A stretch of DNA of 64,000 nt from Mycobacterium sp. Root265 (GTDB lineage Bacteria; Actinomycetota; Actinomycetes; Mycobacteriales; Mycobacteriaceae). Below the pieces are notes generated by a model that had not been told where the DNA came from, did not search any database, and saw only the letters and a list, made by a program, of their open reading frames with translations. Position 1 is the stretch's first letter. Each line of letters starts with the position of its first letter. Location of the stretch: assembly GCF_001428895.1 (NCBI RefSeq), contig NZ_LMJA01000032.1, forward strand, positions 181,809-245,808. The letters are read 5' to 3'. The position numbers and the translations under genes were made by a program. Positions 22,845 through 57,823 of this stretch are shown here, piece by piece.

Positions 22845-22880
22845 GACCTATGTACCGGACCCCTCCGCCGTCCGATAGTG
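22845..22880 (+). promoter_or_regulatory. Shared-architecture promoter A (first glycosyltransferase)
   Basis: GACCTATGTACC (22845-22856), 16 bases, then CGATAGTG (22873-22880). GATAGT at 22874 sits at a -10 position with 17 bases to TGTACC. The same arrangement and exact spacing occurs at 25396, 26306 and, on the minus strand, 57823-57788. This copy has the weakest palindrome. It is 38 bases upstream of the ATG at 22919. Confidence 0.65.
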
Positions 22881-22918
22881 AGTCTGTATCCGAATCGTGT
22901 GCAGTGAGAGGGGGCTCG

Positions 22919-24079
22919 ATGAATTCAGCACTGGCGACCACGGTTCTGCGGATGGCGTTGTGGCACCCGGACCGGACCGAGCAGCACGTCGCCGGATGGT
23001 CCTCGGCGTTCGACCTCCACCGGCGCCCCGGGCGTGAAGTCCATGTGAACGGAAACTGGCTGGCGCACAACAGATCATCGACCAGTCGGTACGCCGCGGA
23101 GATGGTCCGGGCGCTCGCGTCGACAGGTCGGTTGCGGTTGGTTCTGCACGTTCCGGCCGATGCGGGTGAAGCAGTTACTGCATGGGCCGAGGAGAACCAT
23201 GTCCAGATCCGGAGATCCAGGTTCACCGGTACCGCATTCGAGCAGATCCATCTCCCATCGGCCACCGCGGGCCGGATACTGCTGAACTTCGAGGGGACCG
23301 CGCCGATCTTCAAGCGCCGGCAGTTGGTGACCATGCACGACGCCGCTCCGTTTCGGCGGCCATCAGGCTTCAGCAGAAGCTACCGGCTGTTCCACTCGCT
23401 GGCCTATCGGTGGCTCGCCCGAACGGCCGACGGCCTGGTCACCGAGTCCGTGTACAGCGCGCATGAGCTGGCCGATGTGCTGAAGATCGATGTCGATCGT
23501 TTCATCGTGGCCGGGGGCGCCGCCGATTCACTGGACGGTGTGCATCCGATTCGACCCGAACTGCCGGTGTGGGGGGACCATTACCTGGTGATCGGCACCG
23601 CGGCGCCGCACGAGAACATCGTTGCTGCCGCGACAGCGATGGCGAGATCGGGGCGCAGGGTGTTGGTCGTCGGGCTACGCAGTTCAGACTTGACGGCGGA
23701 CTCCTCGGTGGTCTGTGCCGAACATGTGACGGATGCCGAGCTGGTGTGGCTGTACCGGCACTGTCCGGCGTTCGTCCTGCCCGCTACCTACGCCGGCTTC
23801 GGACTCTCGGCTGTCGAGGCGCAGGCCATGGGCTGCCCGGTGGTATGCGCGGATTCGGCTGCGCTGCCAGAGGTTTGCCGGGACACCGCGCTCTATTTCG
23901 ATCCCGATGATCCCGACATGCTGACGGCGCAACTGGACCGGCTGGACTCGGAGATCGGTCTCGCCGAAGAGATGCGGTGCCGTGGATTGCTGAACGCGGG
24001 CCGCTATTCATGGATCGACTCGGCCCGCAAGATCATCGACTGGATGGAGAGAACGCAGCGCCCCGTGACACGTTGCTGA
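22919..24079 (+). CDS. Glycosyltransferase family 4 (first gene of the polysaccharide locus)
   Basis: 386 residues from ATG 22919, preceded by GAGAGGGGG. GT-B fold: an N-terminal Rossmann half (NWLAHNRSSTSRYAAEMVRA) and a C-terminal nucleotide-sugar half with the GT4 donor motif GFGLSAVEAQAMGCPVV and the following DSAALPEV. GT4 enzymes are retaining transferases that add sugars to lipid-linked or glycan acceptors on the cytoplasmic side. It stands alone under promoter A, separated by about 415 bases from the regulators that follow. The GTs in this locus total five, consistent with a repeating unit of several sugars. Donor and acceptor cannot be assigned. Confidence 0.85.
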   Translation: MNSALATTVLRMALWHPDRTEQHVAGWSSAFDLHRRPGREVHVNGNWLAHNRSSTSRYAAEMVRALASTGRLRLVLHVPADAGEAVTAWAEENHVQIRRSRFTGTAFEQIHLPSATAGRILLNFEGTAPIFKRRQLVTMHDAAPFRRPSGFSRSYRLFHSLAYRWLARTADGLVTESVYSAHELADVLKIDVDRFIVAGGAADSLDGVHPIRPELPVWGDHYLVIGTAAPHENIVAAATAMARSGRRVLVVGLRSSDLTADSSVVCAEHVTDAELVWLYRHCPAFVLPATYAGFGLSAVEAQAMGCPVVCADSAALPEVCRDTALYFDPDDPDMLTAQLDRLDSEIGLAEEMRCRGLLNAGRYSWIDSARKIIDWMERTQRPVTRC

Positions 24080-24495
24080 CGATAGCCACGGTGTCCGAAC
24101 GTCGCCAAGACTTCCGCGGAGTCGGACCGCCGTCCATTGTTTGTCCGATCAATTAATCATGTCCTTTTGTGCCGTGTGCTGCAGTTTTGGCGAAGACTAA
24201 TTAGTTCGCTGAAATCGCAACTCGGGTTGCATTCGACACGGTCGTAAATTAGCCTCAGCTTCAGCCGTGCAGCCCTAGACCCTGGTTGCAGTAGGTGTTC
24301 TATAGCGCTCAGTCCTTCGGGCGGTCTATGGTCGAGGCGAAGCGGCATTTTGCAGACAGCGCCACAAGTTGTCTAGCAATACTCTTCGCTACGTACTTTG
24401 ACGTCCACGGGGACGCCGCGCTCGATCACCCGCCGGCCATGAGCGCCTCGGCGGGGGGCGTGCAGTTGCCACATTCATTACGCAGGGGGGCGAAG
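24080..24495. other. Regulatory gap upstream of the first LuxR gene
   Basis: Relatively AT-rich, no gene. It holds the palindrome ACTAATTAGT (about 24196-24205), a GCAAC-TCGG-GTTGC stem (24218-24231), and the second copy of the GTAAATTA-to-CCCTGG element (24244-24286). No copy of the TGTACC-N16-CGATAGTG promoter was found here, so the first LuxR gene appears to be driven differently from the second. Confidence 0.55.
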
Positions 24496-24543
24496 ATGAA
24501 GGCATTTGGAGTGTTGGTTCGTGCATCGGGGTGGGTGCTGTGA
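24496..24543 (+). other. 15-codon leader ORF overlapping the first LuxR start
   Basis: ATG 24496 follows GGGGGG by six bases and encodes MKAFGVLVRASGWVL. Its TGA (24541-24543) overlaps GTG 24540 of the regulator (GTGA). The ribosome site precedes the leader rather than the regulator, so translation of the regulator probably depends on the leader. Confidence 0.5.
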
Positions 24544-25349
24544 CCGTGGCCGAGGACGGCGGTGAAGCCTTCGCTGTTGCTTCCGCGGTTCAGCCCGATC
24601 AGTTCTGGTCCCCGGGTGTGGGTGAGGTGTACCGACGGCAGAGTCCCCTCACCCGCGTCGAACGACACTGGGAAGGTGTCGACGGTGTCGGCCAGCTTTA
24701 TGGCGCAAGGGTTCTGATCATCGATGACTGCAAGCTGTACCGCGACTACCTCGTCGCCGTCGTCACCTCACAGGGAGCGGTGACGCCCGGGGTCGCATGG
24801 GACTGGCCCTCATTGGTTGCGGCGGTCGAAGCGATCACGCCGGCCGTCATTCTGGTCAACATGAGAACTCGTGACAGTGCGATGCTGCTACGACAGGCCA
24901 TGCAGTTGAGCCCGAGTTCCCGCGTCGTCGTGCTGGGCGTGTCCGGGGACGACGAATCGGAGATCGTCGGGTGCGCAGAGGCCGGTGTGGCGGGCTATCA
25001 CCTGCGCTCCGAGACCCTGGACGATCTGATCACCGCCATACACAAGGTTGCCGCGGGCGAATTTCTCTGTTCGCCGGCTGTTTCCGCGATCCTGCTGCAC
25101 CGGATCTCATCGCTGGCCGCGCAACGCCAGCCGGCCGCCAAAGGTCTGGTCCTCACGACCCGTGAGGTTCAGATCCTGCGGATGCTCGAGGCGGGTCTTG
25201 CGAATCGGGAGATCGCCGACCAGCTATGTATCGCCGTGCACACCGTGAAGAACCATGTGCACAGCCTCCTGACCAAGCTCGGTGTCACCTCGCGTGCCCA
25301 GGCTGCCGCGCTGGCCCGCACCATCCTTCCCGCCGAGAGCCCCACGTAA
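24540..25349 (+). CDS. NarL/LuxR-family regulator with an altered receiver domain (paralogue 1)
   Basis: About 269 residues. A receiver-like domain (residues ~56-180) begins VLIIDDCKLYRDYL with the acidic pair Asp62-Asp63 intact. The phosphoacceptor position is Asn107 (VILVNMRTRD), and the usual conserved Lys is Arg (GYHLRSE). A LuxR helix-turn-helix closes the protein (LTTREVQILRMLEAGLANRE, HTVKNHVHSLLTKLG). It is probably phosphorylation-independent. GTG 24540 is chosen because the leader stop overlaps it; GTG 24531 is also possible. The paralogue at 25487 is about 137 bases downstream. No histidine kinase is encoded nearby. Likely regulator of the polysaccharide locus and candidate binder of the shared promoter palindrome. 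Confidence 0.85.
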   Translation: MTVAEDGGEAFAVASAVQPDQFWSPGVGEVYRRQSPLTRVERHWEGVDGVGQLYGARVLIIDDCKLYRDYLVAVVTSQGAVTPGVAWDWPSLVAAVEAITPAVILVNMRTRDSAMLLRQAMQLSPSSRVVVLGVSGDDESEIVGCAEAGVAGYHLRSETLDDLITAIHKVAAGEFLCSPAVSAILLHRISSLAAQRQPAAKGLVLTTREVQILRMLEAGLANREIADQLCIAVHTVKNHVHSLLTKLGVTSRAQAAALARTILPAESPT

Positions 25350-25395
25350 CCAGGACTGCGGGGATCTAGTGATCCAGTCCGAAATTCGCTCCATC

Positions 25396-25431
25396 GGTCC
25401 ATGTACCAATCGCCGTGATGCCCCGATAGTG
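25396..25431 (+). promoter_or_regulatory. Shared-architecture promoter B (second LuxR gene)
   Basis: GGTCCATGTACC (25396-25407), exactly 16 bases, CGATAGTG (25424-25431). The 12-mer is a near palindrome (GGTnCATGnACC) overlapping the -35 position; GATAGT is the -10. The 15 bases upstream also resemble promoters C and D (TCGnTC at a fixed distance). A palindrome around CTAG (25362-25375) lies further upstream. Confidence 0.72.
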
Positions 25432-25436
25432 AAGGC

Positions 25437-25490
25437 ATGTCATTCGGTGCAGCTCGCGTCCATCGACCAGCCGGGCCTGTAAGCGCGTGA
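25437..25490 (+). other. 17-codon leader ORF, apparently leaderless, overlapping the second LuxR start
   Basis: ATG 25437 lies six bases after GATAGT, where the transcript should begin, so it could be translated as a leaderless mRNA. It encodes MSFGAARVHRPAGPVSA and its TGA overlaps GTG 25487 of the regulator (GTGA). This is the same arrangement as the leader of the first LuxR gene. Confidence 0.5.
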
Positions 25491-26263
25491 ACCCCGGCGT
25501 GATGGATGACGGGTGGTCGGCCGGCAATGGGCGGCCACCGCCCGAACTGCATTCGGTCGGGGCACCGCGCGACGAGTGGGCCACCGCCGATGATGTCGGT
25601 CTACTGCGCGACCTGCGGATCTTGATCCTCAACGACTGCGCCATGTTCCGTGACTACCTGGTTGCCGTACTCGCATCTTACGGCGCGGAGTCACCGGGGG
25701 TCGCCTGGGATCTGGTGTCGTTGATAGCCGCCTTCGAGACGACACAACCACGAATCATCCTGTTGGACAGTAGAACACGTGACAGCACGATGCTGCTACG
25801 GCAGGCGATGAAACTGAGTCCACACGTCCGACTGGTGGTCCTCGGCGTATCTGAAGAGGACGAGGCCGAGATAGTTTCGTATGCCGAGGCCGGCGTGGCG
25901 GGCTACCACCTGCGCAGCGAGTCGCTCGAGGACCTGCTTGTGTTGATACACAAGGTTGCTGCCGGCGGCTCCCTGTGTTCGCCGAGAGTGTCGGCAATTC
26001 TGCTCCGCAGACTGTCGGCACTGGCCTCACAGGGCCGTCCGGCGGCCAAGGAACTGGTCCTCACTTCGCGGGAGATTCAGATCCTACGGATGCTCGAGAT
26101 GGGCCTCACCAATCGTGATATCGCCGAGCAGCTCCGAATTGCCGTTCATACCGTCAAGAACCACGTCCACAGCCTGCTGACCAAGCTCGGCGTGAGCACG
26201 CGCGCGCAGGCCGCGGCACGAGCCCGAGCCATCCTGCGACCCGAGGGGCCCCCAGGGAACTAG
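25487..26263 (+). CDS. NarL/LuxR-family response regulator-like protein (paralogue 2)
   Basis: 258 residues, clearly a duplicate of the regulator at 24540. The receiver has the phosphoacceptor Asp94 (IILLDSRTRD), but the N-terminal acidic pair is Asn49-Asp50 (LILNDCAMFRDYL) and the conserved Lys is Arg (GYHLRSE). The DNA-binding domain is nearly identical to paralogue 1 (LTSREIQILRMLEMGLTNRD, HTVKNHVHSLLTKLG), so both should recognise the same site. It is transcribed from promoter B, which suggests auto- or cross-regulation. The two paralogues have complementary defects in the phosphorylation pocket. Confidence 0.87.
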   Translation: MNPGVMDDGWSAGNGRPPPELHSVGAPRDEWATADDVGLLRDLRILILNDCAMFRDYLVAVLASYGAESPGVAWDLVSLIAAFETTQPRIILLDSRTRDSTMLLRQAMKLSPHVRLVVLGVSEEDEAEIVSYAEAGVAGYHLRSESLEDLLVLIHKVAAGGSLCSPRVSAILLRRLSALASQGRPAAKELVLTSREIQILRMLEMGLTNRDIAEQLRIAVHTVKNHVHSLLTKLGVSTRAQAAARARAILRPEGPPGN

Positions 26264-26305
26264 TCCTGGAACCGGGCGAAGGTTCAGTTCGAAAATCGCT
26301 CGGAT

Positions 26306-26341
26306 GGTCCATGTACCAATGGCACTGGTTCGCCGATAGTG
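26306..26341 (+). promoter_or_regulatory. Shared-architecture promoter C (glmS and the main operon)
   Basis: GGTCCATGTACC (26306-26317), 16 bases, CGATAGTG (26334-26341). It is identical to promoter B in both conserved boxes, and the upstream 20 bases are also similar. It should drive the long run from glmS through the deacetylase at 48573. The element CTAGTCCTGG (26260-26269) lies upstream, overlapping the LuxR stop. Confidence 0.73.
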
Positions 26342-26387
26342 ATGTGGTGCTTCGGAGTTTACTCAGGACTATTCGGGAGGGTCGCTG

Positions 26388-26468
26388 GTGTTCAACGTGA
26401 CATTGCAGCCGGCTGAATCCGGATTTGCGCCAATAGCTTTCATCGCGCCACGTTTCGGGCAACGTTGA
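26388..26468 (+). other. 26-codon leader ORF ending TGATG at glmS
   Basis: GTG 26388 follows GGGAGG by seven bases and opens a 26-codon frame (begins MFNVTLQPAE) whose TGA overlaps the glmS ATG as TGATG. glmS has no ribosome site of its own outside this frame. An earlier GTG at 26347, at the expected transcript start, gives a 17-codon frame that ends at 26400 and overlaps this one as GTGA. Confidence 0.5.
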
Positions 26469-28255
26469 TGTGCGGCATCATCGCGTGCCGGACAGACCGG
26501 CCGGCGGTCGACTACCTCCGGGTGGGGTTGCGGCGACTCGAGTACCGCGGATACGACTCCGTCGGGGTGGCGCTGCGGACGGCCTCCGGCGACATCGCCC
26601 GGCTGCGGACCACAGGGCGAATCGGCACGCTGGAGAATCTGCTCGACGGCTGGTCCGGTGCAAAGTTCGACGGGATGGGAATCGGGCACACGCGCTGGGC
26701 GACTCATGGTGCGGTGACCGAGGAGAACGCGCACCCACACGTCGATTGCACCGGTCAACTCAACCTGGTGCACAACGGAATCATCGTGAACGCGGACGAC
26801 CTGCGGACCGAGCTCATTGCCGCCGGTCACCGGTTTGCGACCCGGGTCGACAGTGAGGTCCTCGTCCACCTGATCGAGGATGAGCGCCGACGCTGTGACG
26901 ACATCCTGCAAGCAGTACAGAATGCGTTGACCAGGGCCCGCGGGTCGTGGGCACTTGCGGTGCTGGAGCAGCGGTCAAGCCGGATCGTGGTCGCTTCCTG
27001 CGACTCTCCGTTGTTGTTGGCGCACACCAGTCATGGCGACTTCGCGGCCAGCGATATCACGGCGATCGCCGATTGGGCGGATGAGTTCCGTGTCCTGGGA
27101 TCGGGCGACGTGGTCGAACTGACCAGCCGCGACAGGTGGCACCGTGGTGGCGTCAGCGTGGCGCCGCCTGCGCTGACCCGACACCAATGCCGCAGCAGTG
27201 ATGTCGAACTGGGCAATTACCCCGATTTCATGGCCAAAGAGATCGATGAGCAGCCGGAAGCTGCGGCCCGCGTGATCGATCAACTCGCTGATGGGATCGC
27301 GACCGGCGAGGTATGGAACCGACTGGGACTGCCCCCTTTCGAGCGGCTGCGGGTGCTCGGCTGCGGGACCTCGCTGAACGCCGGGAACGTGATCGCCAAT
27401 CTGGCGCGTGGGCTCGGCAGGATCCCGGTGACCGCCACCGTGGCGAGCGAGGCCACCGCCGATGTCCCGGAGCCTGCGCAGTTGTGCCTGGCGCTGAGCC
27501 AGTCCGGTGAAACCGCCGACGTCCTGCGGGCGGTGGACTCATCGATCCTGGGCGGTTCGACACTGCTTGCCCTCACCAACAATCCGTACTCCACGCTCGC
27601 ACGGCAGGCCGACGCCGTGGTGGGATTTCCGGCCGGTCCAGAAATCGGGGTGGCCGCCACCAAGACGTTCATCTGCCAGATCATCGCCGGCTCAGCCGTG
27701 ATGCTCTCCGCGCTGGTGGCGATGAAACGGTTGTCACCCGCGGTGGCCGCACGCCTGGCCGACGACCTGAAACGGCTACCGGATCAGCTCGCTGTCGCCG
27801 GTGCAGTGGCCAATTGCGCTGTACCGGCGATCACCGAAGAAGTCATCGCCGCTTCGGGTTTCATCTTCATCGCACGCGGTTCTGGCCTGCCCTACGCGGC
27901 CGAAGGAGCGTTGAAGCTCAAGGAGCTGACCTATCGGTGGGCCGAGCACTACCCGGCCGGCGAACTCAAGCATGGACCGCTGGCCCTGGTCGAACCGGGC
28001 ACGCCCGTTGTCGTCGTCGACAACGGCGATCCCAAGCTGGCCGCCAACATCGCCGAGGTCGAGGTTCGCGGCGGCCGGGTGATCACCATCGGCTCCGCGG
28101 GGAGCACGATGCCGGTCGTGATGGGACCGGTAGCTCCCTGGGGGCCCATCGCGGCGACCATCCCGCTGCAGGTGCTGGCCCGGATGACGGCCCTCGCACT
28201 CGGTCGCGACGTCGACAAGCCCAGAAACCTTGCCAAATCGGTCACCGTCGAGTGA
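26468..28255 (+). CDS. glmS: Glutamine-fructose-6-phosphate aminotransferase (GlmS paralogue)
   Basis: 595 residues. ATG 26468 gives N-terminal MCGII, so Cys2 becomes the N-terminal nucleophile of the class II glutaminase. RRLEYRGYDSVGVAL and GIGHTRWATHG follow. The C-terminal part has two SIS domains (LGCGTSLNAGN, ALSQSGETADV, GPEIGVAATKTF, AEHYPAGELKHGPLAL). The product glucosamine-6-phosphate feeds UDP-GlcNAc. The segment that reads ASEFRYR in E. coli GlmS is ASEATAD here, so substrate handling or activity may differ. Being inside a polysaccharide locus with a dedicated promoter, it is probably a pathway-specific copy in addition to the housekeeping enzyme. Confidence 0.9.
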   Translation: MCGIIACRTDRPAVDYLRVGLRRLEYRGYDSVGVALRTASGDIARLRTTGRIGTLENLLDGWSGAKFDGMGIGHTRWATHGAVTEENAHPHVDCTGQLNLVHNGIIVNADDLRTELIAAGHRFATRVDSEVLVHLIEDERRRCDDILQAVQNALTRARGSWALAVLEQRSSRIVVASCDSPLLLAHTSHGDFAASDITAIADWADEFRVLGSGDVVELTSRDRWHRGGVSVAPPALTRHQCRSSDVELGNYPDFMAKEIDEQPEAAARVIDQLADGIATGEVWNRLGLPPFERLRVLGCGTSLNAGNVIANLARGLGRIPVTATVASEATADVPEPAQLCLALSQSGETADVLRAVDSSILGGSTLLALTNNPYSTLARQADAVVGFPAGPEIGVAATKTFICQIIAGSAVMLSALVAMKRLSPAVAARLADDLKRLPDQLAVAGAVANCAVPAITEEVIAASGFIFIARGSGLPYAAEGALKLKELTYRWAEHYPAGELKHGPLALVEPGTPVVVVDNGDPKLAANIAEVEVRGGRVITIGSAGSTMPVVMGPVAPWGPIAATIPLQVLARMTALALGRDVDKPRNLAKSVTVE

Positions 28256-28302
28256 CCGAGAACGGCCAGCACACGGTGAGCATTCAGATGGGAGCACGAG
28301 CG

Positions 28303-29871
28303 ATGAGCGATCTTGCGGCGCAAGCGAATGAACCGGGAGTCCTTCTCGAGCGAAACATGGTCTCCTTCGGTGCCTGTTCCGCTGACGACGTGGTGAACGA
28401 CTTCGCTGCGATTGTGCGAGAACAGCCCAACCATGCTGCGCTCATGCACAACGGCGCCACGGTGAGCTATCGAGAGCTCGCGGAGCGCATCCGCCGTCAG
28501 GCATTGCACCTCAGAGTCTTCGGATTCGGTGTGGCGGCACCGTCGCCGTTGATCGGGACGATGGTGTCGCACGCACCTTCGGTCGTCGAGCAGCTGTTCG
28601 GCATACTGCAGGCCGGCGCCGCCTTCTGCCCGATCGACTCGGGACTTCCGGTCGCCAGACAGCAGCAGCTCGCCGAGGTCATGGGACTGGATCGCGTGTT
28701 CAGCTCGGGCAACGAGTCGCTGGTCGGTGACGAATTCGCCGGCGATGTTCAGGCGGCCTTGCCGCGGTGGCGGCCGGACGATCCGGCCTATGTGTTGTGC
28801 ACCTCGGGATCGACGGGGCGGCCGAAGCCGGTGGTGGTGTCGCGCAATGCCCTTGCCGTGACCGTGCGCGCCTTGCGGGACCTCTTCGCGCTGACCCCGC
28901 ACGACCGTGTGCTGCAGTTCGCCTCGCTGGGATGGGACACCTGCCTGGAGGAGATCCTGCCGGCACTGACTGCCGGCGCGACAGTGGTTTTCGACGATGC
29001 GGCCCATTCCCATTCGTTTCCGCGGTTCGTCCGCATGCTGGCCGATCGCGAAGTGACGGTGCTCGATCTGCCGACAGCGTTCTGGCATGAACTGGTGCTC
29101 TTTCTGCACGAGGAACATGTGGCACTGCCGGACAGTGTGCGCCTGGTGGTGATAGGCGGCGAACGGATCGATCGAACCAGGTTTGCCCAGTGGCGCGATC
29201 GGGGAACCGGGAACATCCGGCTGCTCAACACCTACGGATGCACCGAGACCACGATGATCACCCATGCGGTGCAGCTGAGCGGTCCCGGCACCGAATCAGC
29301 TGTCTCGGAAGTCGAGTCGGAGTTGCCGCTCGGGCGCGCGTTGCCGCATGTGCGCGACCATGTCACCGACGAGGGTGAGCTCCTGGTGTCGGGCCCGGCA
29401 CTGGCCGACGGCTACCTCGGGCTACTGGAACGTACTGCGGCCGAATTCCCGGTGATCGACCACGGCGACGGACCGGCGCGCTGGTTCCGTACCGGAGACC
29501 TCGTCACCCGCGGTGAGGGCGGCCTGCTGTATCCGTGCGGGCGAGCCGATGAGCAGGTGAAGGTGCTCGGTGTGCGGGTGCATCCGGCTGAGGTGGAAAC
29601 CCATCTGAGCGCGCACCCCGCCGTGCGGGGCGCCGTCGTGATCGGCGAACGATCTCTGGGCCGCACCACGTTGGCGGCATACGTCGTCCCGATCGGGGCG
29701 GTGACTCCGGGGGAGCTGAAACGTCATCTCCGCAGTCTCCTGCCCAGCCAATTCGTACCCAGCAAGCTGATATTCGTCCGTGAGCTGAGCTACACGTCCA
29801 GCGGGAAAATCGACCGGACGGCCACTCAGCGTGCCGCCGCCGACTACGACAGCAGAGGAGCTGGCCGATGA
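28303..29871 (+). CDS. Stand-alone amino-acid adenylation protein (NRPS A-domain)
   Basis: About 522 residues from ATG 28303 (GGGAG upstream); GTG 28252, overlapping the glmS stop, is an alternative. Core motifs are present in order: A3 LCTSGSTGRPKPV, A4 with Asp in GWDTCLEE, A5 NTYGCTETT, A7 WFRTGDL, A8 GRADEQVKVLGVRVHPAEVE, and A10 YTSSGKIDR with the catalytic Lys. The A4 Asp corresponds to the residue that grips the alpha-amino group, so the substrate is probably an alpha-amino acid. It activates the acid as an adenylate and should load the carrier protein encoded immediately downstream (ATGA overlap). A free-standing A plus carrier pair inside a polysaccharide locus is unusual. The specificity pocket cannot be read reliably by eye. 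Confidence 0.85.
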   Translation: MSDLAAQANEPGVLLERNMVSFGACSADDVVNDFAAIVREQPNHAALMHNGATVSYRELAERIRRQALHLRVFGFGVAAPSPLIGTMVSHAPSVVEQLFGILQAGAAFCPIDSGLPVARQQQLAEVMGLDRVFSSGNESLVGDEFAGDVQAALPRWRPDDPAYVLCTSGSTGRPKPVVVSRNALAVTVRALRDLFALTPHDRVLQFASLGWDTCLEEILPALTAGATVVFDDAAHSHSFPRFVRMLADREVTVLDLPTAFWHELVLFLHEEHVALPDSVRLVVIGGERIDRTRFAQWRDRGTGNIRLLNTYGCTETTMITHAVQLSGPGTESAVSEVESELPLGRALPHVRDHVTDEGELLVSGPALADGYLGLLERTAAEFPVIDHGDGPARWFRTGDLVTRGEGGLLYPCGRADEQVKVLGVRVHPAEVETHLSAHPAVRGAVVIGERSLGRTTLAAYVVPIGAVTPGELKRHLRSLLPSQFVPSKLIFVRELSYTSSGKIDRTATQRAAADYDSRGAGR

Positions 29872-30089
29872 GCACCGGTCACATCGTGCAGATCTTCCGG
29901 CGGGTACTCGGGCCGGTGGAAGTGGCTCCGCACTCCGACTTCTTCGAGCTCGGTGGAGATTCGCTGCTGGCCACCCGGGTGCTCAGTGCGATCGCGCGCG
30001 ACTTCGGCACGGAGTTGTCGTGGGATGACTTCATCGAGAATCCCTCGCCCGACGGGCTTTTCGCCAAGGTCACGGCCGCGGTGCGATGA
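29868..30089 (+). CDS. Stand-alone peptidyl carrier protein
   Basis: 73 residues, a minimal thiolation domain. The phosphopantetheine attachment site is FFELGGDSLLATRVL, with the Ser of GGDS as the modified residue. ATG 29868 overlaps the adenylation gene stop and its own stop overlaps the amine-oxidase start (both ATGA), so the three are made in step. It should carry the amino acid activated by the upstream A protein. Confidence 0.9.
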   Translation: MSTGHIVQIFRRVLGPVEVAPHSDFFELGGDSLLATRVLSAIARDFGTELSWDDFIENPSPDGLFAKVTAAVR

Positions 30090-31516
30090 ACGGGGAAAGC
30101 ATGCGTGTCGTGGTTGTCGGGGCCGGCCTTGCGGGGCTGACTGCGGCCGCCGACCTGGTGGCGGCGGGGGCCGATGTCACCGTGCTGGAGGCGGACGACC
30201 GGGTGGGAGGTCGGGTACGCGGCGTCGAGATCGCCGGCGGTGTCGCCGCCGACGGGGGTGCCGCCTATCTGGGTGTCCGGCACACCGAGTTGCTCGCGCT
30301 GATGCGGGAACAGGGTCTGAATGTGGTCTCCACCGGGATGACGGGCGACAGTACGTTCCTGCTGTCGGGTCGTCGGACGACCACTGCGAGCCGAGTGCCA
30401 CCGCTGGACGCTGTGGCACTCGGCGACCTGTTCGACCGCCTTGAGGAGCTCGTCGCCGCGATCCGGCCGGACAAGCCGTGGCTGAGCCCGCAAGCGGGAC
30501 AACTCGACCGGCTGACCGCCGCGCGCTGGCTTGCCGATGAGATCGAGCATCCGGATGCGAAGACCTTCTTCCCACTCTTCATCGGCGAGATGATGGCGGC
30601 CGATCCTGCCGCGATCTCCGTGCTCCACATGGCCTTCTATCTTCGCTCCGGCGGCGGCATCCGGTATCTGAACGCCTTCGAAGGCGGTGCCCAGCAATGG
30701 CGGATCGATGGCGGCGCGCACCTGCTGTGCCAGGCGCTGGCCGCACAGCTGGGTGACCGGGTTCGGTTGGGACAGAGCGTCTGTGCGATCGATCAGACGT
30801 CCGCCGAGGTCCACGTGCAGTGTGCACCGGGACCCGATGGCACACGACCGAGGTATCGGGCCGACCGGGTGGTCGTCGCCGTGCCGCCGGCGCTGGCGCA
30901 GCGCATCACCTTCCGGCCCGGTCTGCGCAGCCCTCGGGCCACGGCGTCCACCGGCCCCGGATGTGCGGTCAAGGTACACCTGGGCTATCCGGCTCCGATC
31001 TGGCGCGAGCAGGGTCTGTCCGGATGGTCGGTGAGCTCACACGGGCCGCTGCTGTCCACCGTCGATGACTCCCCGTCCGATGAATCAGTCGGTGTGCTCA
31101 CGGGATTCGTCACCGGCTCGGAGGCGTCGACGTTCTCGGCGCTGTCGGCTCGCGAGCAACAGGATGCCGTTCTGACCCATGTGGGACGGCTCTTCCCGCA
31201 GCTGCCGCCGCCGGAGCGGTACTCGGTGACGGACTGGCTCACCGCGCGATACAGCCGAGGCTGCTACGCCGCTCTGTTCGGTCCCGGAGATTGGCTGCGC
31301 CTGGGGCCGACACTGATCACCCCACACGGCCGCGTCCACTGGGCAGGTACCGAAACCAGCATGGAGTTCTTCGGGCTGATGGAGGGCGCCATCCGGTCGG
31401 GCCGACGGGTCGCGACAGAGTTGATCCACCGAGCCACACCCGATGATGTCGGAGCCGACTCGCTTGTCTTCAGCCGTGCGGGTAGCGCACGCGTCAACCA
31501 CAGTTCCGTCGAATAG
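30086..31516 (+). CDS. FAD-dependent amine oxidase family protein
   Basis: 476 residues. The N-terminal dinucleotide fold is VVVVGAGLAGLTAAADL, followed by the family's LEADDRVGGRVR. The C-terminal FAD block is HWAGTETSMEFFGLMEGAIRSGRRVA. Such flavoproteins oxidise amines to imines, and some act on amino acids. The ATGA overlap with the carrier-protein gene suggests it oxidises the carrier-bound amino acid or a derived amine, comparable in logic to pyrrole-forming A/PCP/flavoenzyme cassettes but with a different flavoenzyme family (inference). It could alternatively act on a sugar amine made from GlmS-derived precursors. Confidence 0.82.
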   Translation: MNGESMRVVVVGAGLAGLTAAADLVAAGADVTVLEADDRVGGRVRGVEIAGGVAADGGAAYLGVRHTELLALMREQGLNVVSTGMTGDSTFLLSGRRTTTASRVPPLDAVALGDLFDRLEELVAAIRPDKPWLSPQAGQLDRLTAARWLADEIEHPDAKTFFPLFIGEMMAADPAAISVLHMAFYLRSGGGIRYLNAFEGGAQQWRIDGGAHLLCQALAAQLGDRVRLGQSVCAIDQTSAEVHVQCAPGPDGTRPRYRADRVVVAVPPALAQRITFRPGLRSPRATASTGPGCAVKVHLGYPAPIWREQGLSGWSVSSHGPLLSTVDDSPSDESVGVLTGFVTGSEASTFSALSAREQQDAVLTHVGRLFPQLPPPERYSVTDWLTARYSRGCYAALFGPGDWLRLGPTLITPHGRVHWAGTETSMEFFGLMEGAIRSGRRVATELIHRATPDDVGADSLVFSRAGSARVNHSSVE

Positions 31517-31525
31517 GAGTAGATC

Positions 31526-32512: not shown

Positions 32513-32551
32513 ACGCAGTAATCGACGGTTTTTTGCGTACTAGGAGGCGAA

Positions 32552-36647: not shown

Positions 36648-36653
36648 GAAGCC

Positions 36654-43423: not shown

Positions 43424-43428
43424 GCAGT

Positions 43429-44766: not shown

Positions 44767-44769
44767 CTC

Positions 44770-46299: not shown

Positions 46300-46309
46300 G
46301 GATCTCGAT

Positions 46310-48573: not shown

Positions 48574-49385
48574 AGAGACAGTGCGCTACCGGCGGCGCGA
48601 AAACCGGTGTGGTAGACGATATCGGTGGAAGACGTGGGCTCCCGGTACACGCCTTCCTTGTAGTACACCTCAGTCGTACCGGGAATCAGGGTCCGAACGA
48701 AGTACGTGTCGTCGCCATTGGCAAGAGTTTGCTGTACCCCGTTGAGCCACAGCCGGACCCACCCGCGATCATCCGATGATGACCAATGGATCGCCATCAT
48801 CACGTCATGCCACTGGCCGACGTCCAACGGCGTGTCGAAAATCGACAACTGCCCAAGATATTCGTCCGGTGCGGACTGTTTCTCTATGGTCAGCGACCAG
48901 TACCCGTTCTTCATGCTCGTGGTCCAACTGACCGGTGGGCTGCCGCCGGCATAGGCGTGCCACTGATTGGTGACCGCCCATCCGAGATCCGCATGATTCG
49001 CCGGGTACGAAGGATCGAACCTGGTCGAGAATCGATACCACCTGGTCTGTCCTTCGACACCGCCGGACACGGTGCCGCCCTGCACCTCTGAGCGTTCACC
49101 GCCTCCGAACGGGGGCACGTCGCCCGGGCGGACCTCGTAGCGGGCGACCTGGCCCTTGTCGGGGTCCTGCACGACCCGTGCGGAATACGTGGGCACGTAG
49201 TCGCTCGCACTGTCGTTGTATCCCCTGGCCTGTACGGTGGGCCACTGGGAGAAGTTTCCGGTGGAGTAGTCGCCGACGAACAGCGGGGCCGCGGACACAT
49301 TCGGGGCGAGTGACAGTGCAATGGCGACGGCCGTCGTGATCGGGGCGACTGCGCGTGAAACGCGCACGAAGTGCCTTCGGGTCAT
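48570..49385 (-). CDS. Secreted polysaccharide lyase-like protein
   Basis: 271 residues with a clear signal peptide (charged start, then VAPITTAVAIALSLAPNVSA and a cleavage after SAA). The mature part is a beta-jelly-roll resembling heparin-lyase I/PL20 glucuronan-lyase type proteins: GDYSTGNFSQWPTVQ, GERSEVQGG, WYRFSTRFDP, NQWHAYAGGSPP, GQWHDVMMAIHWS, YYKEGVYRE. It probably trims or releases the acidic polysaccharide outside the cell. It is the last gene of the left-going arm and overlaps the convergent deacetylase by four bases. Confidence 0.78.
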   Translation of the reverse strand: MTRRHFVRVSRAVAPITTAVAIALSLAPNVSAAPLFVGDYSTGNFSQWPTVQARGYNDSASDYVPTYSARVVQDPDKGQVARYEVRPGDVPPFGGGERSEVQGGTVSGGVEGQTRWYRFSTRFDPSYPANHADLGWAVTNQWHAYAGGSPPVSWTTSMKNGYWSLTIEKQSAPDEYLGQLSIFDTPLDVGQWHDVMMAIHWSSSDDRGWVRLWLNGVQQTLANGDDTYFVRTLIPGTTEVYYKEGVYREPTSSTDIVYHTGFRAAGSALSL

Positions 49386-52291: not shown

Positions 52292-52341
52292 ACCTGGCTG
52301 GTTCCCCTCTCCGACTGTTAGGGCTGGATGTGTGCGAGCCG

Positions 52342-53799
52342 TCAGGCCGGAAGGTCGATCTCGTGATGCCCGCGGGTCACGCTGATTGCCGGTTCCTCAC
52401 CGGGTCCCGGCGTGGGTGCATCGCAGTTGGCACGCCACCATGCCTGCCCGGATGCCGGCAGGCTGCCGATCGGATCGTAGAACGGGTAGACGCGGCTCAA
52501 AGCATCGGCATCGGACTGATCCAGCCCGGTGCGGTAGTTCTTGTTCCAATACGAAATGCCGAGTTCGCGATCGTATTTCACCATCTGATGCACCCAGCGC
52601 TTGCCCACGTAAGGCACGTCGCACACGAGTCGAGGAGTGGCGAAACCCGGCAGATAGCCCATGATCGCCAGTTGCAGCTGCTGGGCCTCGCCCAACGAGG
52701 TGCGCCAGTGCTCCGCGTGCGGGATCATGTCGCAGAGGTAGAAGTAGTACGGCACGATGTTGGCCTCGCCCTGCAGGGCAAAGCACAGATCGAGCAGGTC
52801 GTCGGCGGTGGCGTTCACGCCCCGCATCAGCACGCCCTGGTTGCGAACGTCCCGTAGGCCGGCGTCGATCAGAGCCCGCGCCGCCGCCGCGACCAGAGGC
52901 GTCACCGACTGCACGTGGTTGATGTGGGTGTGCAGCGCCAGGTTCACCCCGCGAGCCGCCGCCGTCAGTGCGAGACGATTGATCCCGTCGACGACCTTGG
53001 GTTGCAGCCAGTGTTGCGGGAGGGCGGCCAGCGCCTTGGTGGCCAGCCGGATGTCGCGGATGGTGTCGATCTCCAGAAGCTGCGCGATGAACGCCTCCAG
53101 GCGCGGCCAGGGGACATTGGCGAGATCCCCACCGGACACCACGACATCACGCACGGTCGGTGTGACCCGCAGATAGGTGAGCATGCGGTCCTGCCGGTCG
53201 GCCGACAGTAGGGGCAGGGTGGACTTGGTGACCGCCGGCGTGGACTTGCCGACCAGATCCATGCGGGTGCAATGCCCGCAGTACTGCGGGCAGGTGGACA
53301 CCAGCTCGGCGAGTACCTTTGTCGGGTACCTGTGGGTCAGTCCCTCCACCACCCACATATCAGCCTCGTGCAGCGAGTCACGTTCGGCGTAGGGGTGTGA
53401 GACCCATTCCGGATCGCGGTCGCTGAGTACCGGCAGCATGTAACGCCGGATGGGATCGGCATAGAAGGCCTCGGTGATACTCCAGCGTTCCGGTCCGCAG
53501 TGCGGAGCCATGGTGTTGAGCATCTGCGGAGGCAGCAACATCTGCATGGTGGCGCGCTGTTGCTGGTCGGCAATCAGGTCCTCATAGAAACGATCGTCGA
53601 GCAGATGCCCCATCACAGCCCGGAGTTGCGCGATGTTCTTGACAGAATGTGCGCGCTGCCATTGCGGATCCTGCCACTGTGCCTCGGTGACCGCAGCCCA
53701 GCCCGGGTAACGACGCCAGTCCGGTTCGGCCAGCTCCTTGCGGGTGTAGACATACGGCTGATCGGTTGCGGCGGTGAAGTGCGCTGTTTCGCTGGACAT
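52342..53799 (-). CDS. kamA: KamA-family radical SAM enzyme, probable lysine 2,3-aminomutase
   Basis: About 485 residues from ATG 53799 (GGCGGGG upstream); ATG 53817 is an alternative. The radical-SAM cluster motif is Cys170-x3-Cys174-x2-Cys177 in TCPQYCGHCTR. The PLP lysine is Lys400 in CDVPYVGK. The two substrate-carboxylate/amine Asp positions known from clostridial lysine 2,3-aminomutase (293 and 330) correspond to Asp357 (YYFYLCDMI) and Asp394 (VCDVPY), with the same 37-residue spacing; glutamate 2,3-aminomutases replace these. The likely reaction is L-lysine to beta-lysine. Placed between an initiating sugar transferase and two acyltransferase-like genes, it may supply a beta-amino acid for polysaccharide decoration or for the NRPS nearby. 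Confidence 0.83.
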   Translation of the reverse strand: MSSETAHFTAATDQPYVYTRKELAEPDWRRYPGWAAVTEAQWQDPQWQRAHSVKNIAQLRAVMGHLLDDRFYEDLIADQQQRATMQMLLPPQMLNTMAPHCGPERWSITEAFYADPIRRYMLPVLSDRDPEWVSHPYAERDSLHEADMWVVEGLTHRYPTKVLAELVSTCPQYCGHCTRMDLVGKSTPAVTKSTLPLLSADRQDRMLTYLRVTPTVRDVVVSGGDLANVPWPRLEAFIAQLLEIDTIRDIRLATKALAALPQHWLQPKVVDGINRLALTAAARGVNLALHTHINHVQSVTPLVAAAARALIDAGLRDVRNQGVLMRGVNATADDLLDLCFALQGEANIVPYYFYLCDMIPHAEHWRTSLGEAQQLQLAIMGYLPGFATPRLVCDVPYVGKRWVHQMVKYDRELGISYWNKNYRTGLDQSDADALSRVYPFYDPIGSLPASGQAWWRANCDAPTPGPGEEPAISVTRGHHEIDLPA

Positions 53800-53800
53800 T

Positions 53801-55339
53801 TCAGTACGCCCCGCCATGCCGGAACACCGCGCGCAGGGTCTTGGTGATGATCAGGAGATCGCCGGCCATCGACCAGTTGTCGACGTAGGAGAGATCAAGG
53901 CGGATCGCGTCCTCCCACGCCAGATCGGATCGGCCGCTTACCTGCCAGAGCCCCGTGATACCAGGCTTGACCAGCAGTCGGCGCAGAGAATCACTGTCGT
54001 CCTCCTCGTCCTGAATCCAGAAGAGGGGCCGCGGTCCGACCACGCTCATGTCGCGGCGCAGGACGTTGATGAACTGTGGCAACTCATCGATGCTGAACCG
54101 TCTGAGTATTCGCCCGACCGGCGTCACCCGCGGATCATTCTTGATCTTGAACAGCTGCCCGTCGCACTCGTTGCTTCCCATCAGGTTGACGAGCTTCTTG
54201 TCGGCGTCCTGCACCATCGTCCGCAGCTTCAGCATGCGAAATGATTTACCGGCGAATCCGATTCGTTCCGACGAGTAGAAGACAGGTCCGGGACTGGTCA
54301 CCTTGATGGCGGCCGCCGCGATCAGCAGGACCGGCAGCGCGGCGGTCAGCGCGGCGGCGGCAAAGCAGAGATCGAAGGCCCTCTTCTGGAAGCGTTCGGC
54401 ACCCCGATACTGCGGCTTCTCGATGTGCAGCAGCGGCAGGCCGGCGACGGGCAGCATGGTCAGCCGGGAACCCGCGACATCCGTCACTCCCGGGGAAACC
54501 AGGAGCTCGACGCCGAGGGGCTCCAGCTTCCAGATGAGCTTGCGAATCTGCTGAACTCCGAGATGCTCGGTGCCGACGACCGCCAGTGTGTCCGCGCCGT
54601 ACGAGCGGATCAGTGTCTCCAAGGTGGCCAGATCACAGCTGCCGCCGCCGACGATGGGTATCTGTTCGCCACGGACCAGCAAGTGCTGGTCGGGGAATGC
54701 CCGGCTGCCCGGAATGCAGGCACCCACGAAACGGAATCCGTCCGCCGGGCGCCGGGTGAGTTCGTTGGCCAGGTTGGTGACCGCCTCGGTGTTCCCGACC
54801 GCGAACACGGTGTTCTGGTAGCTGCCATCGGTTCGCTTGCGCGCCACGTACCGCCGCGCCAGCCACCTGCTCAGCACCAATCCGAAAATGCCGGCCGGGA
54901 GTGCCACCGCGAGGTAACCGCGGGCGATCTCGAGGTGGAAGATGTACTCGGTCATCGCGATGGCCCCGAATGTCCAGATGGACGCCTCGACGGCGCGCCG
55001 GTACTCCTCGAGACCCCTGCCGATGATCCGTGTGCACCTGGCTCGGAATCCAGCCAGCAGCGACAACCAGATGATGACGGTCAGGACTGAACACGCAGTG
55101 GCATAGCGATTCTCGTGTCCGGTGACGAAGGGCGGCAGGCCGAAGCGGACGTACTGCGCGAACGCCACTGCAACGCACACCACGATGGCATCGGTGATGC
55201 GCAGATTGGCGGCGTAACGCTGTTGCCAGCGCGGACGCGTGAGATCCGTGGCCGGCGACCGCTCGGCGTCGAGATCCGCGCCCTGCCTGCCGTTGATGAC
55301 CTCGACGCGCTCATCGGCGGTGCTTCCCGGCATACTCAT
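53801..55339 (-). CDS. Polyprenyl-phosphate sugar-1-phosphate transferase (initiating enzyme, CpsE/WbaP type)
   Basis: 512 residues. Four to five N-terminal membrane helices, a cytoplasmic CoA-binding-like domain (TVFAVGNTEAVTNLANEL), one more helix and the C-terminal catalytic bacterial sugar-transferase domain: YRGAERFQKRAFDLCFA, SERIGFAGKSFRMLKLRTM, RRFSIDELPQFINVLRRDMS, VVGPRP, VKPGITGLWQVSGRSDLAWE. It attaches the first sugar phosphate to the lipid carrier and so starts each repeat. ATG 55339 overlaps the stop of the UDP-glucuronate decarboxylase gene (ATGA), which argues against the upstream start at 55375. Confidence 0.92.
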   Translation of the reverse strand: MSMPGSTADERVEVINGRQGADLDAERSPATDLTRPRWQQRYAANLRITDAIVVCVAVAFAQYVRFGLPPFVTGHENRYATACSVLTVIIWLSLLAGFRARCTRIIGRGLEEYRRAVEASIWTFGAIAMTEYIFHLEIARGYLAVALPAGIFGLVLSRWLARRYVARKRTDGSYQNTVFAVGNTEAVTNLANELTRRPADGFRFVGACIPGSRAFPDQHLLVRGEQIPIVGGGSCDLATLETLIRSYGADTLAVVGTEHLGVQQIRKLIWKLEPLGVELLVSPGVTDVAGSRLTMLPVAGLPLLHIEKPQYRGAERFQKRAFDLCFAAAALTAALPVLLIAAAAIKVTSPGPVFYSSERIGFAGKSFRMLKLRTMVQDADKKLVNLMGSNECDGQLFKIKNDPRVTPVGRILRRFSIDELPQFINVLRRDMSVVGPRPLFWIQDEEDDSDSLRRLLVKPGITGLWQVSGRSDLAWEDAIRLDLSYVDNWSMAGDLLIITKTLRAVFRHGGAY

Positions 55340-56283: not shown

Positions 56284-56329
56284 GAGTGTTGTCCTCTGCT
56301 GTCCGGATGGGTCCGATCATTGAAAGTCG

Positions 56330-57649
56330 TCATTGGCAGCCCAGACCGCGATAGGTCCAGCCCGCTGCGCGCCAGGTCTCGGGATCGAGGCAGTTACGCG
56401 CGTCGATGATGCATCGGGATCTGGTGACAGCGGCGAGTTCCTGTGGCTGGAGCCGGCGGAACTCTTCCCACTCGGTGAGCACGAGCACGGCGTCGGCCTC
56501 CATACAGGCCTCGACGGCCGAGAACGCAAAGTTGAGTGCCGGGAACGACTTCCGGGAATTGTCCATCGCCTTGGGGTCGTACACTGTGACATCCGCGCCC
56601 TCCGAACGGATCTGGTCGGCAACGGCCAGTGCGGGTGAATCGCGGATGTCGTCGGTGTTCGGTTTGAACGCCGAGCCCAGAATTCCGACCCGTGCCCCGG
56701 CCAGCGATCCGCACTCCTCCCGGGCCATGGCGACGACCCGGGTACGGCGCCGGATGTTGATGTTGTCGATCTCGCGCAGAAAGTTGAGGGATTCGCCTAC
56801 GCCCAGTTCGGTGGCGCGGGAGATGAACGCGCGGATGTCCTTCGACAGGCACCCGCCGCCAAATCCGAGCCCGGCGTTGAGGAAGCGACGTCCGATGCGA
56901 TCGTCGTACCCGATCACGTCGGCGAGCGATGTGACGTCAGCCGACGCAGCCTCACACACTTCGGCAATCGCGTTGATGAACGAGATCTTCGTGGCGAGGA
57001 ACGCGTTGGCCGCGACCTTCGCCAGTTCGGCGGTTTCGAGATTTGTCACCAGGAACGGGATGCCCTCCTGCAGAAGTGGGGCATACAGCTCCCTGATGGT
57101 CTCCTCCGACCGGAGATCGTGGCGATCCTCCAGGCCCAACACGATCCGGTCCGGATGCAGGGTGTCGTTGATCGCGAACCCCTCCCTGAGGAATTCCGGA
57201 TTCCAGGTCAGCCTCACATCGTCACCGGCAGGAGCGGTCCGGCGCACACGGTCTGCCAGCCGTTGGGCTGTTCCGACGGGCACCGTCGACTTGCCGACGA
57301 TGAGCGCGGGCCGGTTCAGGTGGCGGCACAGGGAGTCGATCGCCGCGTCGACATAGGACAGGTCGGCACCCGCGTCCCGCTTGTTCTGCGGAGTACCGAC
57401 GGTGATGAAATGGACATCAGCGAATTCCGCTGCCTCAGCGAGTGATTCGGTGAATCCGAGTCGGCCTGAAGCCATACCTTCTTGAACGAGGGCGTCCAGT
57501 CCCGGCTCGAAGAACGGCAGCGCGCCGGATCGGAGCCTGGCCACCTTGTCCGGATCGATATCGGCGGTCAGCACGCTGTGCCCGAGTTGTGCCAGGCATG
57601 CGGCATGTGTCGTCCCCAGGTACCCGGCTCCGATTACGGCGACCTTCAC
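56330..57649 (-). CDS. ugd: UDP-glucose 6-dehydrogenase
   Basis: 439 residues from GTG 57649, six to seven bases after GGGGGAT. The family starts with KVAVIGAGYLGTTHAACLA, so the in-frame extension to ATG 57760 is probably untranslated leader. Motifs: VGTPQNKRDAGADLSYVD, STVPVGT, NPEFLREGFAINDT, the catalytic cysteine in GLGFGGGCLSKDIRA, and GSAFKPNTDDIRDSP. It oxidises UDP-glucose to UDP-glucuronate. First gene of the left-going arm, about 140 bases downstream of promoter D. Confidence 0.93.
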   Translation of the reverse strand: MKVAVIGAGYLGTTHAACLAQLGHSVLTADIDPDKVARLRSGALPFFEPGLDALVQEGMASGRLGFTESLAEAAEFADVHFITVGTPQNKRDAGADLSYVDAAIDSLCRHLNRPALIVGKSTVPVGTAQRLADRVRRTAPAGDDVRLTWNPEFLREGFAINDTLHPDRIVLGLEDRHDLRSEETIRELYAPLLQEGIPFLVTNLETAELAKVAANAFLATKISFINAIAEVCEAASADVTSLADVIGYDDRIGRRFLNAGLGFGGGCLSKDIRAFISRATELGVGESLNFLREIDNINIRRRTRVVAMAREECGSLAGARVGILGSAFKPNTDDIRDSPALAVADQIRSEGADVTVYDPKAMDNSRKSFPALNFAFSAVEACMEADAVLVLTEWEEFRRLQPQELAAVTRSRCIIDARNCLDPETWRAAGWTYRGLGCQ

Positions 57650-57787
57650 GTCAGATCCCCCATTCAGGCCGCGGCTCGGATACCGGTACGGATTCCGAAC
57701 AGTGAGGCGGCCGATCAATGTCAGCAGGCTGGCTGCACGAACGCCCGTGACGAACACCATGTCGAGTCATTCCGTGAAGCACATGCT
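57650..57787 (-). other. ugd 5-prime leader region
   Basis: About 140 bases lie between the -10 of promoter D and the ugd GTG. An ATG four bases after AATAGT gives a five-codon frame (MCFTE, stop), and ATG 57760 is in frame with ugd. As with glmS and the LuxR genes, small ORFs at the transcript start precede the real gene; translation of the 37-residue extension cannot be ruled out. Confidence 0.4.
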
Positions 57788-57823
57788 CACTATTGTTTGC
57801 TGGCCGCCGGCAGTACATGGACC
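57788..57823 (-). promoter_or_regulatory. Shared-architecture promoter D (ugd arm)
   Basis: On the minus strand: GGTCCATGTACT (57823-57812), exactly 16 bases, CAATAGTG (57795-57788). Two single-base differences from promoters B and C. Upstream bases also resemble B and C (TCGnTC at the same distance). A CCAGTCCCTGG element (57854-57864 on the plus strand) lies about 37 bases further upstream. Confidence 0.72.

Follow-up and report, generated by a model that had tools for sequence, protein, structure and literature searches.

A candidate activator-dependent promoter class associated with LuxR-type pseudo-receiver regulators in mycobacterial polysaccharide islands

RcsB/RcsA, CsgD and VpsT are NarL-type regulators of exopolysaccharides, and some of them carry atypical receivers. 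In this study, we analysed a 64,000-nucleotide stretch of Mycobacterium sp. Root265 (contig NZ_LMJA01000032.1, positions 181,809 to 245,808; hereafter the window), in which four copies (A to D) of a long promoter element stand in a polysaccharide locus together with genes for two NarL-type regulators, LuxR1 and LuxR2. We believe it quite probable that the element defines a class of promoters that depend on activation by pseudo-receiver LuxR proteins, that LuxR1 acts on luxR2 in a feed-forward step, and that translation is relayed into luxR2, glmS and ugd. As in the systems above, NarL-type regulators are here associated with a surface polymer, but the family-model scores are weak: the CsgD model gave expectation values (E) of 4.1e-17 and 3.9e-16, with scores of 62.5 and 59.3 bits where the cut-off is 250. 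Capsule control by RcsB/RcsA is named in an excerpt of PMC4125116.

The closest solved relative of LuxR2 is DevR, also a NarL-type regulator. The present system differs from DevR/DosR in several respects: the box sequence is unlike the DevR consensus, the receiver mostly lacks the phospho-acceptor, no kinase was found among the 30 locus proteins scanned, the sites were found in one island only of this genome, and open reading frames (ORFs) of a predicted leaderless relay are added. What is shared is the packing of sites upstream with the proximal one overlapping the -35, as an excerpt of PMC3029386 describes for DevR promoters; because DevR sites overlap the -35, the conserved block at -55 to -30 described below is a plausible class II activator site. 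BldM and WhiI of Streptomyces are likewise orphan atypical response regulators with a non-palindromic site in one target class (excerpt of PMC4125116), but they have another motif and developmental regulons, whereas here paralogue arrays, most with their own promoter copy behind, lie in polysaccharide islands. Leaderless coupled small ORFs of mycobacteria, in the part of PMC4633059 that treats them, have ATG or GTG at the transcript start and end at the start of the next gene, as predicted here; the present ones differ in being tied to one promoter class across many species and in meeting glmS mostly through TGATG instead of ATGA or GTGA junctions. The parts therefore resemble known things, DevR-type promoters and leaderless coupled small ORFs, and in open-access papers we found no description of this combination.

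Anatomy and rarity of the element

An earlier note on this DNA had suggested that one promoter architecture, a left 12-base box followed after exactly 16 bases by a right box with a -10-like GATAGT, serves both arms of the locus. The four copies were found at the claimed positions with the right sequences and with exactly 16 bases between the boxes in all (Table 1), and both the common architecture and the -10-like GATAGT were borne out. The left box is GGTCCATGTACC in B and C, GGTCCATGTACT in D and GACCTATGTACC in A, and the right box is CGATAGTG in A, B and C and CAATAGTG in D. The TCGnTC reported upstream of B, C and D does lie at a fixed distance, 10 bp before the box; copy A has TGGATC there. 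The four genes named as served (a glycosyltransferase gene, luxR2, glmS and ugd) stand, with the amendment that glmS and ugd would be reached via short ORFs and that copy A, before the glycosyltransferase gene, has no ATG/GTG at the predicted +1. About a third of the element had been caught: its full length is roughly 110 bp, and the box near -77, AAAWTSGCTC at -55 to -46, the start codon at the predicted +1 (B, C, D) and the downstream boxes of some copies had been missed.

Table 1. Element copies, short ORFs and served genes in the window (window coordinates)
Feature	Position	Strand	Details
Element copy A	22806..22893	+	box 22845-22856; -10 block 22873-22880; R1 35.8 bits, E 2.7e-10
Copy A predicted +1	22886	+	GTA, not a start codon; no relay
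Glycosyltransferase, GT4-like, served by copy A	22919..24079	+	Pfam Glyco_trans_1_4 / Glycos_transf_1
LuxR1, NarL-type, pseudo-receiver	24531..25349	+	Asn at phospho-acceptor position; GerE; alignment; sequence
Element copy B	25360..25455	+	box 25396-25407; -10 block 25424-25431; predicted +1 = ATG 25437; R1 52.9 bits, E 1.2e-15
Short ORF B, predicted leaderless, 17 aa	25437..25490	+	TGA overlaps luxR2 GTG (GTGA); same overlap in M. bacteremicum
LuxR2, NarL-type	25487..26263	+	Asp kept (one of 6/101); GerE; closest solved chain DevR 3c3w, E 9.8e-20
Element copy C	26255..26359	+	box 26306-26317; -10 block 26334-26341; predicted +1 = GTG 26347; R1 58.9 bits, E 1.7e-17
Short ORF C1, predicted leaderless, 17 aa	26347..26400	+	reading frame from predicted +1 GTG
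Short ORF C2, 23 aa	26397..26468	+	starts on C1 stop (GTGA); stop overlaps glmS ATG (TGATG)
glmS, glutamine-fructose-6-phosphate transaminase, served by copy C	26468..28255	+	NCBIfam glmS above cut-off
Element copy D	57764..57862	-	box 57823-57812; -10 block 57795-57788; predicted +1 = GTG 57782; R1 49.5 bits, E 1.5e-14
Short ORF D, predicted leaderless, 43 aa	57651..57782	-	stop ends one base before ugd start
ugd, UDP-glucose dehydrogenase	56330..57649	-	start re-set to GTG 57649; Pfam UDPG_MGDP_dh domains on longer ORF; sequence

The 12-mer alone occurs at chance level, with 55 matches against 54.3 expected when up to 3 mismatches are allowed. The two-box core TGTAC-N19-ATAGT was found 4 times in the window against 0 in 100 shuffles and 5 times in the whole 6.67-Mb genome, 4 of them in the window; the probability of such clustering is about 4e-9, for a region picked after the fact. 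The exact pattern of the earlier note gave 3 matches genome-wide, all in the window. As a test of conservation this pattern is misleading and we rejected it: it occurs in 1 of 98 genus genomes searched and in none of the other 97, though the element itself recurs beside the same type of regulator gene in dozens of related species. With G at position 12 in 65 of the 98 copies collected below, a search for the exact pattern makes the element look private to this species.

To collect relaxed copies, relatives of LuxR2 were fetched (76 loci from named genomes, plus others), and the copies lay mostly just behind LuxR genes. R1, a sequence-only model, was made from 53 copies of other species, none of them taken from the window, M. 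bacteremicum or M. aurum. Run over the whole genome at E<=10, this held-out model returned exactly A, B, C and D (35.9-58.9 bits), and over 97 sources it gave 113 matches, of which 15 were repeats and 98 are unique copies.

Counted from the predicted start, with the flanks read from 62 strict copies, the element runs from GAACTAGnCC near -77 through AAAWTSGCTC (-55 to -46), GGTCCATGTACG (-41 to -30), a spacer of 16 bases in 77 copies, 17 in 20 and 18 in 1, and CGATAGTG with an almost invariant ATAGT, to a start codon, ATG or GTG, at the predicted +1; some copies also have GTTAGCTC near +13. GAACTAG with one mismatch allowed is present in 78/98 copies, peaking at -77 (34) and -78 (24). In all 98 copies the second position of the -10 is A and the sixth is T; the invariance of TGTAC and ATAGT is inflated, because the copies were collected via that pattern or a model made from it. 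The first base of the -10 is G in 81 copies, A in 11, C in 6 and never T, and the commonest -35 is TGTACG (42/98). Promoters of the main, SigA-type sigma factor have T at the first -10 position and a TTGACA-like -35. The present element shares with them the spacing of 16-18 bp and the A and T of the -10, and the missing first T and the -35 unlike TTGACA would fit dependence on an activator.

The earlier note had also taken the left 12-mer for a near palindrome bound by a dimer, and this part fell. Pair 1-12 is complementary in 19/98 copies and pair 4-9 in 5/98, and variants of the CCATATACG type are uncompensated; since the symmetry is neither conserved nor compensated, a symmetric dimer site is unlikely there and was rejected. 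The Dev box of DevR promoters is a 20-bp palindrome; here, partial palindromy is seen in the GGAACTAGTCC-like box near -77 and none in the box at -41 to -30. A clear 7-2-7 inverted repeat is not claimed either, only a weak signal near -71 and -68.

In alignments of three species the element was the best-kept stretch of each promoter, and the leader of copy C was well kept too. M. bacteremicum, the closest named relative by LuxR2 (92%), and M. aurum keep all of A-D, and in both of them about 32 kb separate D, which is on the opposite strand, from B and C; the counterparts of copy A align before the same gene with 27.1 and 29.8 bits, respectively. A further genome, G186, has four matches in the same arrangement. 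The named relatives belong to Mycobacterium or Mycolicibacterium.

Link to the LuxR family

The two LuxR paralogues had been proposed as the leading candidate binders, and the distribution of the element strengthened their place. In a genus sample of 397 genomes (R1 cut-off E<=0.01, LuxR2 relative cut-off E<=1e-45; searches of over 40 genomes used stricter filters), an R1 match was found in 57 genomes and a LuxR2 relative in 64: 54 genomes had both, 330 neither, 10 LuxR only and 3 the element only. Of the last three, G311 is 58% complete and the other two gave weak matches (E 0.0011 and 0.0084). Among 139 element matches, 99 lay within 2 kb of a LuxR match and 30 at 2-50 kb, so that 129 were within 50 kb on the same contig; the remaining 10 had no LuxR match on their contig. 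Among 151 genomes drawn from the family, two gave matches, namely the own genome and a second one at E 0.0028. Both the promoter class and its association with the LuxR family are well supported.

The link is also seen gene by gene. In 83/98 copies a LuxR gene ends within 160 bp upstream, and a copy follows closely after 81 of the 101 unique LuxR genes. The next gene within 700 bp, by best match to the window proteins, was GlmS in 30 cases, LuxR in 23, and other or unassigned in 45; ten unassigned next ORFs were scanned, of which four had glycosyltransferase domains (one with a polysaccharide deacetylase), one an oxidoreductase domain and five nothing. The first LuxR gene of an array had a copy within 700 bp upstream in 0/62 cases and later LuxR genes in 23/37; 19 of all 64 first LuxR genes had no downstream copy either. 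In the window, the R1 scan found no element upstream of luxR1.

LuxR1 and LuxR2 carry a C-terminal GerE helix-turn-helix above cut-off (PF00196, E 6.8e-19 and 2.2e-17). Pfam Response_reg was under cut-off in LuxR1 (22.9 against 30.2 bits) and was not listed for LuxR2, whose residues 44-257 align to DevR. Among 101 family proteins the acidic pair is kept in most. Asn occupies the phospho-acceptor position in 71 of them, Ser in 17, Asp in 6 and Thr in 3, the last 4 having another residue or a gap, and Arg stands at the usual Lys position in 92; LuxR1 has Asn, and LuxR2 keeps the Asp but has Arg at the Lys position. The aligned proteins thus place the family as mostly without the phospho-acceptor Asp, and as a whole it does not answer to the description of a phosphorylation-dependent response regulator. 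HTVKNHVH (residues 221-228), which we take to be the recognition helix, is nearly invariant in the 101 proteins, and this shared helix together with the shared element would fit one protein-DNA code used by the paralogues.

Some family members lie outside this pattern. The own genome holds a third one (C20:5272-6147, L163; 56% to LuxR2) on an 8.9-kb contig. A distant LuxR clade (L082-L095), mostly from metagenome-assembled genomes, is without the element; no diverged element was seen by eye in the 190 bp after the stops, where the DNA looks alike behind most of these genes and may hold one shared convergent gene. A contig titled as an Acidobacteria metagenome-assembled genome (L054) has two element copies; because the same match places appear in the genus genome G377, this title probably stems from binning or naming.

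Predicted leaderless relay

Start positions were analysed in 97 copies, one of the 98 being too near a contig end. Counting from the last T of ATAGT, 70 of them have ATG or GTG at an offset of exactly 7 bases, while no other offset from 1 to 30 has one in more than 17 copies. We therefore predict leaderless mRNAs, with a transcript start 7 bases after GATAGT that in most copies falls on ATG/GTG. For copy A, the message of the glycosyltransferase gene is probably leadered, because a purine-rich stretch precedes its ATG.

The short ORF opened by this start codon meets the next gene. An exact start was available for 29 glmS copies (one more was set aside), and in 21 of these the ORF, 13 to 114 codons long, stops on the glmS start codon as TGATG. 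The control frames gave 0 and 2 such junctions; the 2 belong to the window and M. bacteremicum, in which a second short ORF carries on. Three more of the 29 reach glmS through a second ORF; among the five that are left, two end 2 bases short of the ATG, one enters the GlmS frame through an overlapping GTG, and L045 and L156 do not fit a relay. Within the window, B, C and D have the predicted relay and A has not, and a chain like C1-C2 is present in M. bacteremicum and M. aurum. Short ORFs that begin at the transcript start and end at the next start are described for mycobacteria in an excerpt of PMC4633059, and PMC12548453 treats the -1 junction (TGATG) as a recognised arrangement of closely spaced genes.

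Conserved boxes also lie after the predicted start in part of the copies. TTAGCTC with one mismatch occurs at +6 to +26 in 40/97 copies, 39 of them at +12 to +15, and a GRTCGCTGG box stands near +35 in part of the copies; its core TCGCTGG is found at +27 to +47 in 29/97, against 2-6/97 in other windows. The recurrence of M-x-x-x-L-A...L-A-N in many copies had prompted the idea of a conserved leader peptide, which was rejected: TCGCTGG occurs in all three frames (16, 7, 5), and a nucleotide signal is therefore likelier there. TTAGCTC is mostly in one frame (33, 3, 3), where a contribution of the peptide is possible. No conserved RNA structure was predicted for 21 leaders picked by eye from the 97, and an Rfam search of 22600-27000 gave no match at E<=0.1. 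As a separate observation, TTSGCTC (-52) and TTAGCTC (+13) resemble direct repeats 64 bp apart, about six helical turns (window 26306-26412 and other downstream-box copies).

Mechanism, alternatives and the surrounding locus

We propose that the LuxR/NarL-type pseudo-receiver proteins encoded beside the element would bind GAACTAGnCC near -77 and GAAAWTSGCTCCnATGGTCCAT at about -55 to -35, and would recruit RNA polymerase to the weak -35 (TGTACG) and to GATAGT, which keeps the key A and T without the usual first T. Transcription would begin 7 bases past GATAGT and give a leaderless mRNA, on which the ribosome would start at the short ORF and, where its stop touches the start of the regulated gene, be relayed into that gene. 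LuxR1, whose gene lacks the element, may be the input that turns on luxR2 via copy B; the LuxR pair would then drive glmS (C), ugd and the left arm (D) and the glycosyltransferase gene (A). Such a feed-forward switch would match the supply of sugar precursors to polymer assembly. A wider reading, which we hold only tentatively and think somewhat doubtful, is that a pseudo-receiver luxR with a promoter right behind it forms a modular cassette, copies of which have multiplied in the polysaccharide islands of mycobacteria. Cascades of differing length, from one to four LuxR genes at a locus, would be the outcome, each regulator driving the next and the last driving glmS, with control at the promoter and a second control at the boxes inside the relay ORF (GTTAGCTC near +13, and GRTCGCTGG near +35 in all three frames).

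Several points weigh against the proposed activator scheme. ATG/GTG at +7 is missing in 27/97 copies, copy A included, and the upstream inverted-repeat symmetry is weak. In the 10 genomes with LuxR but no element, all the LuxR2 relatives are distant (best E 1.4e-55 to 1.5e-47, 42-51% alike), and G403, with a relative of that rank (1.1e-55), has the element. No copy stands behind 20/101 LuxR genes, no element was found on the 8.9-kb contig of the third family member, and in L075 an element lies 740 bp before its LuxR gene, just outside the 700-bp limit. The positive half of the co-occurrence is partly circular, because the R1 training copies came from beside LuxR relatives via the TGTAC...ATAGT pattern, several from genomes in the sample; genomes without LuxR and distal copies escape this circularity.

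Among the alternatives, a heterodimer of LuxR1 and LuxR2 on an asymmetric site survives best, and we consider it unlikely. The element is asymmetric, the window has two paralogues with atypical receivers, and BldM-WhiI offers a precedent in an excerpt of PMC4125116; however, four genomes (G077, G119, G128, G138) with one close family member each (E<=1e-45) keep the same element, which indicates that two members are not generally needed and lowers this explanation.

It is still less probable that the element is the promoter of an alternative sigma factor, for example of the extracytoplasmic-function type, with the LuxR proteins as mere passengers of the same islands. Two well-kept boxes, mostly at 16/17-bp spacing, and a first -10 base that is never T would suit such a factor, and a SigD-type consensus looks somewhat similar, which is a lead only. 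But four sites genome-wide are few for a sigma regulon, conservation extends upstream to about -78, the spacing of 16-17 bp and GATAGT are compatible with the main sigma factor plus an activator, and the 30 locus proteins scanned included no sigma factor, a sub-cut-off sigma region 4 match falling on LuxR2's own helix-turn-helix.

About equally improbable, and perhaps slightly more so, is that the sites are LuxR-bound operators that silence the island. The boxes conserved after the start in part of the copies (GTTAGCTC, GRTCGCTGG) and the pair 64 bp apart, which could suit a loop, speak for repression, but the -35 is weak and the -10 off consensus, which suggests that activation is needed, class II activators bind where the main conserved block lies, and the downstream boxes are missing in many copies. 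Chance similarity or recent segment duplication can practically be dismissed: LuxR1 and LuxR2 are paralogues, so that B and C could stem from one duplication, but the spacers differ, D is isolated on the opposite strand at a distance of 31 kb and has been retained by M. bacteremicum and M. aurum, the element persists in many species while flanks diverge, and the held-out model from other species' copies recovers all four.

The locus around the element encodes GlmS, Wzx- and Wzy-like proteins, several glycosyltransferases, a priming sugar transferase and two UDP-glucose dehydrogenases. The left-going arm begins with the gene for one of the latter, ugd. A heparinase II/III-like protein (41255-43423, +) and a polysaccharide lyase (48570-49385, -) are encoded within it too; together with glmS and the two ugd genes, they suggest uronic acid and amino sugar as possible constituents of the polymer. 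Gene layout was compared over 19 stretches, each of 40 kb or less and some incomplete: GlmS and a window-like thiolase occurred in 17, an adenylation-like AMP-ligase and an amine-oxidase-like protein in 12 each and an aminomutase-like protein in 9, and the glycan genes were variable. In the window the last three are a lysine-2,3-aminomutase-like radical SAM protein (52342-53817, -; under family cut-offs), an amino-acid-adenylation-like ligase (28255-29871, +) and an amine-oxidase-like protein (30086-31516, +). Their recurrence with LuxR and GlmS in 9 to 12 of the 19 stretches hints at an amino-acid-like decoration of the polymer. The thiolase-like gene (19172-20332, +), 83-98% alike in relatives and near LuxR genes in those 17 stretches, hints at a fixed island edge. 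A lone upstream-type box GGAACTAGACCC (58016-58050, +; R1 6.2 bits, E 0.48, possibly chance) without -35/-10 boxes lies just before a polyketide synthase-aminotransferase gene divergent from ugd.

Through the element, a variable class of mycobacterial surface-polysaccharide islands gains a regulatory code that can be read. Element and regulator occur together in 54 of the 397 sampled genus genomes, and R1 is usable for finding such islands. Transcript starts are predicted to the base, the starts of glmS and ugd have been re-set, and short ORFs of 17 to 43 codons, which annotation could miss, are predicted in the window. Furthermore, loci with one to four LuxR genes form a natural series in which the switching of response regulators that lack a phospho-acceptor can be studied.

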